35,902 nucleotides of DNA, taken from the NCBI GenBank assembly GCA_009692605.1, contig SHYV01000013.1, positions 1 to 35,902 on the forward strand, written 5' to 3'. Shown in pieces: positions 26,932 through 31,535 of the stretch; the first letter of the stretch is position 1, and each line of letters begins with the position of its first letter. A program made the position numbers and the translations under genes. The notes beneath the pieces are model-generated. The model had not been told where the DNA came from and ran no database searches. It was given only the letters and a program-made list of their open reading frames with translations. The stretch is from Myxococcales bacterium (GTDB lineage Bacteria > Myxococcota_A > UBA796 > SXON01).

Positions 26932-26956
26932 CCTCGGCGGGCGCTGTCAGCCGAGG
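26932..26956. terminator. Hairpin between convergent genes, no T-tract
   Basis: CCTCGGC (26932-26938) and GCCGAGG (26950-26956) form a 7-bp perfect stem with an 11-base loop, between the DUF2934 gene and the convergent folE2 gene, overlapping the last codon of folE2. There is no T-tract on either strand, so terminator function is uncertain. Confidence 0.3.
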
Positions 26957-28101
26957 AACCGCTCCGGGTCGGCGAGGATCCTTGCCATCAGCTCCGGGGG
27001 CACGACCCCGGCGCGTAGCAGCACCAAGGGCACCTCCACGCCCAGCGCGCGAGCCAGCCTGCGCAGCGCTGGCTCCGCGAGCCGTCGCTCGTCGCTCTCC
27101 ACCTTTGAAAGCAGGCTGTGACTGACCCCGATCCGGCTTGCTAGGTCGCCCTGCGTCCAGCCCTTCTGGCCCCGGCAGCCACGCAGCCACGCGCCGAAGG
27201 AGGGGCTGCCCTCAGGAATGGTTGTTGGGCTCCCCTCCCGGTCCGGCTCGGCGTGGACCGAGCGCGTTGGCCATTCCAGGCTGGCGAACGCGGAGTGGTT
27301 GTGGATTGACTCGATGTTCTCGACCTCCACCGACAGCCAGGTCACGGTGGCCGGGTGCGCGCGAAGTACGCGGACGGTGTCCCGGAGCAGGTCCTCGACG
27401 AACACCGGATGATCGTAGGCGCGCTCGGTGACGTACTTCTCGTCTTCGCGCTTTAGTAGGCCGTAGACGGGCGAGGATGCGACGGACTCAACGGCCTCCA
27501 CGACGTCCTCGATCCAGAGCATGCCGCTGGAGCGTGCTCGGACGCGAACGTAGCCCCGCTGATTGTGCGCGCCTCGGTCACTGACCGCCTTTGAGCATGG
27601 ACACAGCGTGGTGACCGGCACTTCGACGCGCAGCTCGAACGTGAAGTCCTCTCCGTTTCGCTCTGCGTGAAAGCCGCATCGGTAGGCGTTCAGGGAGGTC
27701 GCGCGGCTGACTGGCGCGGCGCGCCGAAGAAAGTAGGGAAACGTCGCGTCGAGCTGGGCGCGCTCGGCCCCGAGTCGGCGTTGCATGGTCATCATCAGGT
27801 CGGGGAGGTTCTTCAGGGAGAGCTCCGACTTGACGTCGTTGAGCACCTCGACGAAGCGGCTCATGTGCGTGCCCTTGATGTCAGCCGGCAGCGCGACGGT
27901 GGCGTCCAGCACCGCGACGGTGTGCTGCATGCCGTCCTCGCGATCCCATACGGTGATCGGCCAGGACAGGCCCTTGATGCCGACGCGGTCGATCGCGATG
28001 CCACGCTCGTCGGCGTGGCTGGCGTGATCGGCCAGGCCTGCCCGGGATGCGGGGGGCGAGCCGGTTTGGCGGGCGAGCGGGCCGGATGCGCGTGTGGTCA
28101 T
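26947..28101 (-). CDS. folE2: GTP cyclohydrolase IB (FolE2) fused to a C-terminal XRE-type helix-turn-helix domain
   Basis: A 384-residue protein, about 100 longer than usual FolE2. Residues about 30-275 are a complete GCYH-IB catalytic domain: GIKGLSWP, VTTLCPCSKAVSDRGAHNQR (C167, C169, H179), SSPVYGLLKREDEKYVTE and ENIESIHNHSAF (E264, H267, H269). It hydrolyses GTP to 7,8-dihydroneopterin triphosphate, the entry to folate and 7-deazaguanine (queuosine) synthesis, in a metal-tolerant manner. After a 25-residue linker, residues 301-360 form an XRE helix-turn-helix: FGAWLRGCRGQKGWTQGDLA, then SRIGVSHSLLSKVESDERR, then LRRLARALGV. The last 25 residues (LRAGVVPPELMARIL) are also typical of XRE proteins. 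The reading frame is continuous with no stop between domains. It diverges from queD, with a 13-bp inverted repeat in between. Confidence 0.93.
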   Translation of the reverse strand: MTTRASGPLARQTGSPPASRAGLADHASHADERGIAIDRVGIKGLSWPITVWDREDGMQHTVAVLDATVALPADIKGTHMSRFVEVLNDVKSELSLKNLPDLMMTMQRRLGAERAQLDATFPYFLRRAAPVSRATSLNAYRCGFHAERNGEDFTFELRVEVPVTTLCPCSKAVSDRGAHNQRGYVRVRARSSGMLWIEDVVEAVESVASSPVYGLLKREDEKYVTERAYDHPVFVEDLLRDTVRVLRAHPATVTWLSVEVENIESIHNHSAFASLEWPTRSVHAEPDREGSPTTIPEGSPSFGAWLRGCRGQKGWTQGDLASRIGVSHSLLSKVESDERRLAEPALRRLARALGVEVPLVLLRAGVVPPELMARILADPERFLG

Positions 28102-28125
28102 GCGGGCGGCTACCGGTTATTTACA

Positions 28126-28138
28126 AAGTTGTCAACTT
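28126..28138. promoter_or_regulatory. Perfect 13-bp inverted repeat, candidate operator between folE2 and queD
   Basis: AAGTTG-T-CAACTT is perfectly symmetric around one central base, in the 62-base AT-richer gap between the divergent folE2 (start 28101) and queD (likely start 28164) genes. Read on the minus strand it contains TTGACA (28135-28130), which could be the -35 element of folE2, though no good -10 follows at normal distance. Size and symmetry suit a dimeric XRE-type regulator. Confidence 0.5.
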
Positions 28139-28163
28139 CATCCCTCCAGCAGGTTTGCCAAAA

Positions 28164-28610
28164 TTGGAAAGTACCATCACATGCACCCGGCGCATCGAGT
28201 GGGATGCGATGCATCGAATCCCCCGACACGAGTCGAAGTGTGCGGCGTTTCATGGGCATCGTTACGCCGCGGAGCTGACATGCGAGGCTCCGCTGGATGA
28301 CCGCGGCCGGGTCATTGATTTTGGCGTGGTGAAGGCGCTGGTCGGTGGTTGGATCGACGAGCACTGGGACCATACGGCGATTCTCCAGCGAGATGACCCC
28401 GAGCCGGCGATACGCGCGCTCGCCGAGGCCAACGCGCGTTTCGGTCGTCCTGTCTACTGGATGGACCTGCCGCCGACGGCGGAGTGCATGGCGGCGGAGC
28501 TGGCAAGGGTCGCGCAGGAGCTGCTGGCCCCGACGGGGGTGCGGCTGGTCTCGCTCCGATTGTGGGAGACCCCCAACGGCAGCGCGGAGTGGCGCCTGGC
28601 GACGAGATGA
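28164..28610 (+). CDS. queD: 6-carboxy-5,6,7,8-tetrahydropterin synthase / PTPS family (QueD)
   Basis: A 148-residue protein of the 6-pyruvoyl-tetrahydropterin synthase family. Zinc and catalytic residues are visible: DAMHRIPRHE (first His), KCAAFHGHRY with the CxxxHGH spacing of QueD (not the ExxHGH of PTPS-III), WDHTAIL (Asp/His of the catalytic relay) and LWETPNGSAEW (substrate-binding Glu). QueD converts dihydroneopterin triphosphate to 6-carboxytetrahydropterin in queuosine synthesis, the step after GTP cyclohydrolase. The TTG start at 28164 is chosen because it gives the usual N-terminus (ESTITCTRRIEW) and the open frame upstream overlaps the operator and folE2; no strong ribosome-binding site is seen, so the start is uncertain. 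It overlaps the next gene by 4 bases (ATGA). Confidence 0.88.
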   Translation: MESTITCTRRIEWDAMHRIPRHESKCAAFHGHRYAAELTCEAPLDDRGRVIDFGVVKALVGGWIDEHWDHTAILQRDDPEPAIRALAEANARFGRPVYWMDLPPTAECMAAELARVAQELLAPTGVRLVSLRLWETPNGSAEWRLATR

Positions 28611-29674: not shown

Positions 29675-30331
29675 GTGTTTACCGGACTGGTCGATCACCC
29701 CGGAAGGATCGTGCGCGTCGCGCCCAGCGGCGGCGGCCGCACCCTCGCGATCAACAGCCGGTTCACCGATTTCGTGCTCGGGGAGAGCATCGCCTGTGAT
29801 GGCGTTTGCCTGACCGTCGAGCGCTGGACGGGGTCCACGTTCGAAGTGACCGCAGGGGAGGAGACGCTGCGGGTGACCACCCTCGGCGCGGCGGCGGCCG
29901 GCGATGAGCTCCATCTGGAGCGTGCGCTTCGTCTTGGTGACCGCCTCGGGGGACACCTGGTTCAGGGACACGTCGACGGGGTCGGCACCGTCATCGCGGT
30001 GGTGCCGGGTGCGGCATGGACGCGCGTCGACTTCAGCGTTCCCGTCGAGCTGTCCAGGTACATCGCGCCGAAGGGCAGTATCACGGTGAATGGTGTCAGC
30101 CTGACTGTGAACGCGGTCACCGGGGGCCCGGGGGTGCCGGGTTCGTTCAGCGTAGGCCTGGTGCCGCACACCCTCGCGATCACCCGACTGGGAACGTACC
30201 GCGTCGGAACCAGGGTCAACGTCGAGACGGATCTTCTCGCCCGGTACCTTGAGCGCCTCTCGGTTTTCCAGGGGCCAGCCTCCGCGGCAGTTGACCTTGA
30301 CCTCCTGCTGCGCTCCGGATTTTCAGGCTGA
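29675..30331 (+). CDS. ribE: Riboflavin synthase (alpha subunit)
   Basis: A 218-residue protein with GTG start at 29675 giving the invariant N-terminus MFTGLV, 9 bases after the djlA-like stop. Two similar lumazine-binding domains are visible: the first with SIACDGVCLTVE and the second with GSITVNGVSLTVN, joined by GGHLVQGHVDGVGT. The C-terminal oligomerisation helix with ETDLLARYLERL follows, then a short extension to GFSG. The enzyme dismutates two 6,7-dimethyl-8-ribityllumazine molecules to riboflavin plus a pyrimidine. It is followed by ribB in the same direction, as in many rib operons; ribD and ribH are not in the window. Confidence 0.94.
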   Translation: MFTGLVDHPGRIVRVAPSGGGRTLAINSRFTDFVLGESIACDGVCLTVERWTGSTFEVTAGEETLRVTTLGAAAAGDELHLERALRLGDRLGGHLVQGHVDGVGTVIAVVPGAAWTRVDFSVPVELSRYIAPKGSITVNGVSLTVNAVTGGPGVPGSFSVGLVPHTLAITRLGTYRVGTRVNVETDLLARYLERLSVFQGPASAAVDLDLLLRSGFSG

Positions 30332-30428
30332 CGTTCCCGGCTCCGCCGTCGCCCGCGCTCGATCCCCCATCCTGCTTCCTCCCTCCTCCCTCCTGCGTCA
30401 CCGCACCCCTACTGCTCCCGGATTCCCC

Positions 30429-31535
30429 ATGTCGTTTCAGGTCTATCCCTCCGATCCCGAGACGCGCGTCCGGCTTGCTCTCGACGACATCCGCAACGGC
30501 AAGATGGTGATCCTCATCGACGACGAGGACAGGGAGAATGAAGGCGACCTGACGCTCGCGAGCGATCGCGTCACGCCCGAGGCCATCAACTTCATGGCGA
30601 CTCACGGCCGCGGGCTGATCTGCGTGACGCTGACAGAGGATCGTGTTGCGACCCTCAACCTGCCGATGATGGCCTCGAACAACCGCTCCCCGTTCTCCAC
30701 CGCCTTTACGGTCTCCGTCGAGGCCCGCGACGGCGTGACCACGGGGATCTCAGCCGCCGACCGGGCGCGCACGGTGCAGGTGCTCAACGACCCGTCCACC
30801 GGGCCGAACGACCTCGTGACGCCCGGTCATATGTTTCCGCTGAAGGCCCGAAATGGCGGTGTGCTGGTTCGGACCGGGCAAACCGAGGGCTCGGTCGATC
30901 TCGCTCGGCTCGCCGGCCTGAGCTCCTCGGGCGTGATCTGTGAGATCATGAACGACGACGGCACGATGTCGAGGCTGCCTGATCTTGAGCGGTTCGGGGA
31001 GAAGCACCAGATCCACATCGTCGCGGTGGCCGATCTCGTGCGATGGCGGCTGAAGTACGAACAGCTCGTGACGCCGGTCCTCGATCTGCCGATCGCCACC
31101 GAAGAATTCGGTGCCTTCCAGGCTCGGGTATATCAGGCGATGGGGGGCGGGCTGCACCTCGCGTTGTGGTCTGGCGAGCTGGTGGGGCCGGTGCTGACGC
31201 GGGTGCAGGCGTCGAGCGGGCCGGTAGACGTGCTTCGCGCGTTAGCGAGCGGCTCTCAGGGGCCGCTTCGAGGGGCGATGGCGGCCATCGCACGGGAGGG
31301 CAAGGGAGTGTTGCTGTACCTGCATATCGACGGCAGCGGACCGGATGCTCTGCTTGCCCGGATGCGCGGGGAGGCGTCGAAGCTGGACCCGTTGAGGGAG
31401 CTGGGCCTCGGCGCGCAGATCCTTGCCCATCTCGGTGTGCGGGAGATTCGACTCCTGACGAACAACCCCCGGAAGATCGTGGGTCTGGACGCTTTCGGCC
31501 TCCACATCGTGGAGCACGTGCCGTTGGGAAGCTGA
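30429..31535 (+). CDS. ribB: 3,4-dihydroxy-2-butanone-4-phosphate synthase fused to a degenerate GTP cyclohydrolase II-like domain
   Basis: A 368-residue protein. Residues 1-205 are a complete RibB domain: [11 protein letters not shown] (acidic metal-binding site), [38 protein letters not shown] and [16 protein letters not shown]. It converts ribulose-5-phosphate to 3,4-dihydroxybutanone-4-phosphate plus formate. The C-terminal half aligns with GTP cyclohydrolase II at its end ([20 protein letters not shown]), but the zinc site has no cysteines ([20 protein letters not shown] where RibA has SECLTGD.FGS.RCDC), and the RQEGRGIGL motif is replaced. This matches the RibBX type known from Proteobacteria, so cyclohydrolase II activity is not expected. 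ATG 30429 is the conserved start. A pyrimidine-rich 97-base gap separates it from ribE; no FMN riboswitch motif was recognised there. Confidence 0.92.

Follow-up and report, generated by a model that had tools for sequence, protein, structure and literature searches.

The gene described here encodes a GTP cyclohydrolase of the IB type (FolE2) that continues, in one frame, into a C-terminal helix-turn-helix (HTH) domain of the XRE type, and we propose that this protein, FolE2-HTH, is a bifunctional, self-regulating enzyme that would bind twofold TTGNC sites and, most likely, repress its own promoter. We give this reading a probability of about 0.7. The fusion itself is genuine: it is an old feature of its group, and selection acts on it. 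Few enzymes serve also as their own transcription factor, and FolE2-HTH would add to the trigger enzymes a cofactor-pathway enzyme that stands at the folate/queuosine branch; its candidate operators are short and defined, the regulator domain and its candidate DNA site have apparently been kept and lost together, and the relatives that lost the HTH provide natural controls.

Architecture of the fused protein

The sequence-only reading had placed an unbroken FolE2 plus XRE frame at positions 26947-28101 of the window, that is, of the whole stretch of 35,902 nucleotides that was analysed. Pfam, NCBIfam and AlphaFold2 confirm this frame; the coordinates hold, and the strand, which had not been given, is minus (the plus-strand reading of the same positions contains 7 stops). 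The gene and its parts are as follows.

26947..28101, minus strand: folE2-HTH gene, 384 amino acids plus stop, a single unbroken frame
27283..28035, minus strand: FolE2 (GCYH-IB) catalytic domain, residues 23-273, from PF02649 and Foldseek
27214..27264, minus strand: linker, predicted to be disordered, residues 280-296, pLDDT below 50, fast-evolving
27025..27198, minus strand: helix-turn-helix domain of the XRE type, residues 302-359, HTH_31 and HTH_3 both over their cut-offs, helices modelled
27097..27120, minus strand: residues 328-335, the domain's third helix in the AlphaFold2 model, presumed to be the recognition helix
26950..27024, minus strand: conserved C-terminal tail, residues 360-384, from the alignment of 31 fused proteins

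By its profile matches, the N-terminal domain is a complete GTP cyclohydrolase IB above the curated cut-offs, namely, 283.3 bits for the Pfam family PF02649 (GCHY-1; cut-off 25) at residues 23-273 and 266.9 for the NCBIfam FolE2 equivalog NF010200 (cut-off 215). The domain predicted earlier at residues 30-275 is thus present, with its start moved to near residue 23. Six residues (C167, C169, H179, E264, H267 and H269) are invariant in 31 of 31 aligned fused proteins, and we take the CPC, GAHNQR and HNH motifs of FolE2-HTH to be the active site. The C-terminal domain matches the Pfam profiles HTH_31 at residues 302-359 (50.7 bits, cut-off 27) and HTH_3 (43.9, cut-off 23), which bears out the earlier placement of an HTH at about residues 301-360; it is followed by a conserved tail that the sequence-only reading did not mention, with the consensus LRAGVVPxxLLARxxADPEGFL in the 31 aligned fused proteins. 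The AlphaFold2 model has a mean pLDDT of 84.9, the catalytic domain being mostly confident, the blocks of residues 301-384 lying between 80 and 97, and residues 280-296 falling below 50. In Foldseek, the catalytic domain aligns with the GCYH-IB structures 8g8v and 3d2o at TMt 0.88-0.90, and the C-terminal domain with the XRE regulators ClgR, NHTF and C.BclI, these matches being weaker than the FolE2 ones; a PDB sequence search agrees with Foldseek for FolE2, ClgR and NHTF. The role of residues 328-335 as the recognition helix is presumed from the XRE fold of the model.

Distribution, origin and selection

Fused genes were found in 33 of the 71 genomes of the window's class, one of them (G273) split over two contigs, and in 3 of the 57 genomes of a second class of the same phylum, where the gene of G280 is cut at position 339. 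The phylogenetic spread of FolE2 plus HTH, proposed earlier as a check, is therefore a recurrence in 36 genomes with the domain order conserved. Within the order, 35 of 63 genomes gave a FolE2 match with an E of at most 1e-60, and in 30 the match extends through the HTH; in the remaining five of these 35, namely G005, G007, G041, G051 and G054, FolE2 ends at profile positions 267-276 and has no HTH. Among 377 sampled genomes of the phylum, 72 had FolE2 matches, and no further fused family emerged. The look beyond the phylum was a scan of named genomes in which 80 of 457 candidates were listed: at least 11 are fused and 69 unfused. The fused entries among the matches listed all come from metagenome-assembled genomes (MAGs), and the titles of those 11 read proteobacterium, Pseudomonadota, Deltaproteobacteria, Polyangiaceae, Myxococcales or Myxococcota; these relatives suggest that the group consists of uncultured kin of the myxobacteria, in the Myxococcota. 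The FolE2 proteins examined outside the fused group are without the linker and the XRE domain. One MAG, G020, has two fused copies, L035 (G020:C291) and L160 (G020:C11); since its contamination is estimated at 7%, two organisms may stand behind them.

The sequence-only reading had named two findings that would speak against the fusion. One was a frameshift or a missing stop codon; fused frames recur in other species, 31 of them aligned. The other was the presence of folE2 and xre as two genes in close relatives, and no separate xre gene or remnant beside the HTH-less folE2 was detected by profile in L146, L177 and L178, the check in G007 and G041 covering the downstream frames. That reading knew of no FolE2 with a DNA-binding tail, and our search of the open-licence literature likewise found no description of a FolE2 with an HTH or of such a regulator.

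In a maximum-likelihood tree of 64 catalytic domains, all 37 fused rows fall into one group (98/99), which also holds four unfused rows (G005, G051, G054 and L041), and the remaining 23 unfused rows lie on the opposite side of the 98/99 branch; the tree is midpoint-rooted, its fused/unfused label needs 5 changes, its bootstrap has not fully settled, and it was built without L145, L179 and L180 (no or partial folE2) and without G041. The simplest reading of this tree is that the fusion arose once and that a few lineages later lost the HTH; such losses show that the enzyme can manage without the domain. The unfused FolE2 of L041, a Planctomycetota MAG, sits inside the fused clade with a weak placement (82/86); it may have been transferred and have lost the HTH, or it may be misplaced.

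Across 11 close pairs, the catalytic domain has a dN/dS of 0.03-0.18 and the HTH one of 0.03-0.45; for the linker, where 8 of the 11 pairs were computable, it is 0-0.99. The HTH is under purifying selection, yet evolves faster than the enzyme domain.

Gene neighbourhood and other GTP cyclohydrolases

A gene of the PTPS family starts on the other side of the upstream spacer of folE2-HTH:

28164..28610, plus strand: queD-like gene (PTPS family), divergent, start unsure, in-frame TTG at 28164

Its product matches PF01242 (86.8 bits vs 22.4) over 28182-28595 and scores 60.9 bits for the QueD equivalog, below the cut-off of 89.25. In the window, as in genera g1, g2, g4, g5 and g6, folE2 and a queD-like gene are divergent; the order is queC-queE-folE2 in L166, L174, L176, L035 and L038, and queE-folE2 in others. 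All six products scanned, namely QueC in L166, L174 and L176 and QueE in L166, L174 and L159, pass the equivalog cut-offs, and the que neighbours at the other loci are assigned by motif only. folE2-HTH is linked to the synthesis of 7-deazaguanine (queuosine) as much as to folate. About 1 kb past queD, at 29675-31535 on the plus strand, lie genes for riboflavin synthase and DHBP synthase / GTP cyclohydrolase II, so that several routes derived from GTP have genes near one another here.

Among 58 genomes scanned for the other GTP cyclohydrolase family, 7 match PF01227 with 222-245 bits and an eighth, G045, matches it partially with 142 bits; NCBIfam confirms FolE in one of these eight (G037). FolE2 is present in 35 of the 58 and in none of those eight. 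Weaker PF01227 matches, of 64-143 bits, occur alongside canonical FolE in some genomes and alongside FolE2-HTH in others. The notion that FolE2-HTH is the sole GTP cyclohydrolase I was dropped, since taking the weak matches for QueF proved wrong: those examined are a divergent FolE-like paralogue, found at L239:518-1015 (minus strand) in G005 and at L237:657-1091 (plus strand) in G024, and both of these scanned paralogues fall below all NCBIfam FolE cut-offs.

Candidate operators

Both candidate operators of the window lie between folE2 and the divergent queD-like gene.

28155..28170, strand not assigned: proposed operator 1, reading TTGCCA-N4-TGGAAA along the plus strand
28120..28135, minus strand: proposed operator 2, TTGACA-N4-TGTAAA, covering the -35-like hexamer of folE2
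28130..28135, minus strand: -35-like TTGACA, read by eye
28107-28112, minus strand: weak -10-like TAGCCG, 17 bases after TTGACA and directly before the ATG, read by eye

Operator 1 is the sole match of TTKCCANNNNTGGMAA in the genome of the window, where the reversed control likewise matches once. Operator 2 agrees with TTGNC-N6-GNCAA in 7 of 8 letters, and its position is identical in four congeners. A consensus promoter scan of the window found no promoter. A weak -10-like hexamer abuts the ATG at many fused loci, which suggests that the message may be leaderless.

The form of the site shared by g1 and g6, TTKCCA-N4-TGGMAA, occurs 10 times across 9 whole genomes, the reversed control giving 1 (in G000). 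Seven of the 10 are in the queD-folE2 spacer, one per genome in 7 genomes; there is no match in G004, where the spacer is cut by a contig end, nor in G008. The three remaining sites, considered as a wider regulon, were taken as chance: that of G002 is in a hairpin-like repeat, that of G003 inside long frames, and that of G001 in a frame that, we assume, resembles a subunit of NADH dehydrogenase. The g3 form, taken with a -10 TA, gives 11 matches in 13 genomes, 6 of them at folE2, and its control 4. The f7 form, with 6 sites in 5 genomes (2 at folE2), is weak, since its control gives 3. Two further g3-type sites in G017 were likewise set down to chance and not to a regulon; these near-identical, promoter-like sites (L200 and L206) stand beside a duplicated, unrelated ORF of about 450-500 amino acids, apparently a repeated element. 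In g3, where queD is located apart from folE2, no site was seen by eye upstream of queD. In L174 (G185), the spacer upstream of queC holds several TTGAC repeats, resembling an operator array. A search of 6 sources with Rfam for RNA switches returned only a tRNA, in L174. The generic palindrome test gave a modest result, 6 of 28, where shuffles averaged 1.2 and reached at most 5.

The earlier suggestion that FolE2 regulates transcription through DNA, perhaps at 28100-28165, has in part gained ground: the dyads at 28155-28170 and 28120-28135, the conserved, selected HTH, and the lack of the dyad in five relatives without the HTH are comparative support for DNA binding and self-regulation, whereas its proposal that GTP, pterin product or metal is sensed is conjecture.

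Joint scoring of the dyad

The pattern scored jointly consists of the half-site TTGNC, arranged as TTGNC-N6/7-GNCAA or mirrored outward, no more than 110 bp from the operon start. The 37 fused loci scored include L035, the second copy in G020 (contamination 7%), and L038, from a named MAG; L175 (G244, start unplaced) and L039 (a duplicate of L176) are left out. At least 7 of the 8 letters are present at 34 of the 37 loci and all 8 at 20, the other 3 loci reaching only 6. Shuffled sequences gave means of 3.9 (at least 7) and 0.16 (8) of 37, with maxima of 10 and 2 in 100 sets, and the upstreams of other long ORFs at the same loci, many of which are not true promoters, gave 10 of 217 and 1 of 217. 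When clustered at 85% identity, L180 being left out, all members have at least 7 letters in 17 of 19 clusters, and 8 in 11 of 19.

For FolE2 without an HTH, scored directly upstream of folE2, the counts are 5 of 25 at 7 or more letters and 0 of 25 at 8, G041 being absent from these 25 controls; this first comparison was unequal, the fused loci having been scored at the operon start, and both sets were rescored alike later. Scored only directly upstream of folE2, the fused loci reach at least 7 letters in 27 of 37 cases and 8 in 10 of 37. The generous count, which admits the upstream of any same-strand ORF within 2 kb, gives 35 and 21 of 37 for the fused loci and 10 and 1 of 25 for the HTH-less FolE2. 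The HTH-less relatives G005, G007, G051 and G054 (the start of the last being unsure) score 5, 6, 5 and 5, and at most 6 in the generous count; G041 scores 6. The comparison of 34/37 fused loci with 0/5 HTH-less relatives yields a Fisher p of 6.6e-5, uncorrected for kinship. The dyad figures overstate the certainty, because many of the scored sequences had served to devise the pattern; G244 (L175), the only locus scored after the pattern was fixed, has 7 of 8 letters. Taken together, these counts are a strong comparative signal, drawn with a pattern partly devised on the same data, that the candidate dyad follows the fused HTH and not FolE2 as such.

Proposed mechanism and alternatives

We envisage that the N-terminal GTP cyclohydrolase IB would start the synthesis of pterins and of 7-deazaguanine (queuosine), and that the C-terminal XRE domain, held on a flexible linker, would bind TTGNC dyads at the promoter of its own gene or operon, be it folE2 with divergent queD, queE-folE2, or queC-queE-folE2. 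Known GCYH-I enzymes are oligomers, so that a single dyad could be bound by a pair of HTHs from adjacent subunits. Repression appears to be the most likely effect, as the site overlaps a TTGAC at -35 distance in g1, g3 and f7 loci; we infer that the HTH domain binds this dyad and represses by doing so. A further step, which we put forward tentatively and at slightly less than even odds, is that the FolE2 domain acts as a sensor, with GTP, product, metal or the tetramer state switching the XRE domain on its own que/fol promoter. If so, the first enzyme would itself read the flux into pterins and queuosine, at a place where other bacteria have a preQ1 riboswitch or Zur.

Set against the sensor is a simpler sub-case of the self-regulating enzyme, in which the FolE2 domain senses nothing and the HTH represses its own gene by protein level, as controller proteins or antitoxins do. 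We consider this feedback by concentration quite possible, if on the lesser side of even: the operator is local and, in g1/g6, near single-target, the controller protein C.BclI is among the structural matches of the HTH, and the long disordered linker could uncouple the two domains; it leaves unexplained, however, why the HTH is fused to this enzyme instead of forming a separate regulator.

It is unlikely that the dyad belongs to another regulator and that the fused HTH serves something else, for instance, nucleoid attachment or the stability of the oligomer. These genomes do contain XRE domains in plenty, and weak matches are numerous elsewhere, but the site follows the fused HTH and, in g1/g6, has almost no other genomic copy. 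Still less probable is that the dyad is mainly an extended -35 element plus chance, with no operator and with a degenerate or decorative HTH. The left half-site TTGAC does double as a -35 hexamer, and the pattern was tuned by eye on the scored sequences; on the other hand, the HTH is under purifying selection, the right half-site lies outside any -35, and the other ORF upstreams, though many are not true promoters, match in only the 10 of 217 cases given above.

That Zur controls folE2, the HTH being uninvolved, seems very improbable, as the conserved site tracks the HTH and the candidate dyad is, as we take it, unlike Zur boxes. It has in its favour that folE2 is listed, in an excerpt of PMC6103462, as a Zur target in several bacteria. 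An assembly or sequencing artefact that joined two genes, conceivable in that the window comes from a draft genome of 186 contigs, was rejected as having practically no chance, given the recurrence of the fused frames, in conserved domain order, across the 36 genomes.

Comparison with known systems

With FolE2 (PF02649; 3d2o, 5k95, 8g8v), the protein shares the whole catalytic domain, its fold and a score above the NCBIfam cut-off, and differs from it by the added linker and XRE domain. The C-terminal domain has the fold of ClgR (3f51), NHTF (3vk0) and C.BclI (2b5a), and resembles the first two also in sequence, whereas these PDB entries are regulators without an enzyme domain.

FolE2-HTH combines an intact enzyme domain with a DNA-binding domain kept by selection, and is a FolE2 variant that we regard as new and that probably acts as trigger enzymes do. 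The DNA-binding domain of PutA, a proline dehydrogenase and repressor, differs in fold from XRE. PutA is nevertheless alike in being an enzyme with a DNA-binding domain that acts in a divergent spacer, as is proposed here for folE2/queD; it differs in the enzyme, in its catabolic pathway, and in that proline is known as its signal. PMC8249747 describes PutA as a trigger enzyme whose binding is confined to the spacer between the divergent putA and putP, and names five enzymes doubling as transcription factors in E. coli K-12. RbkR, an archaeal riboflavin kinase that the excerpt of PMC8305020 lists as both gene regulator and enzyme, is, like FolE2-HTH, a cofactor-pathway enzyme with an HTH domain, and differs in being archaeal, in the enzyme, and in the N-terminal position of its HTH.
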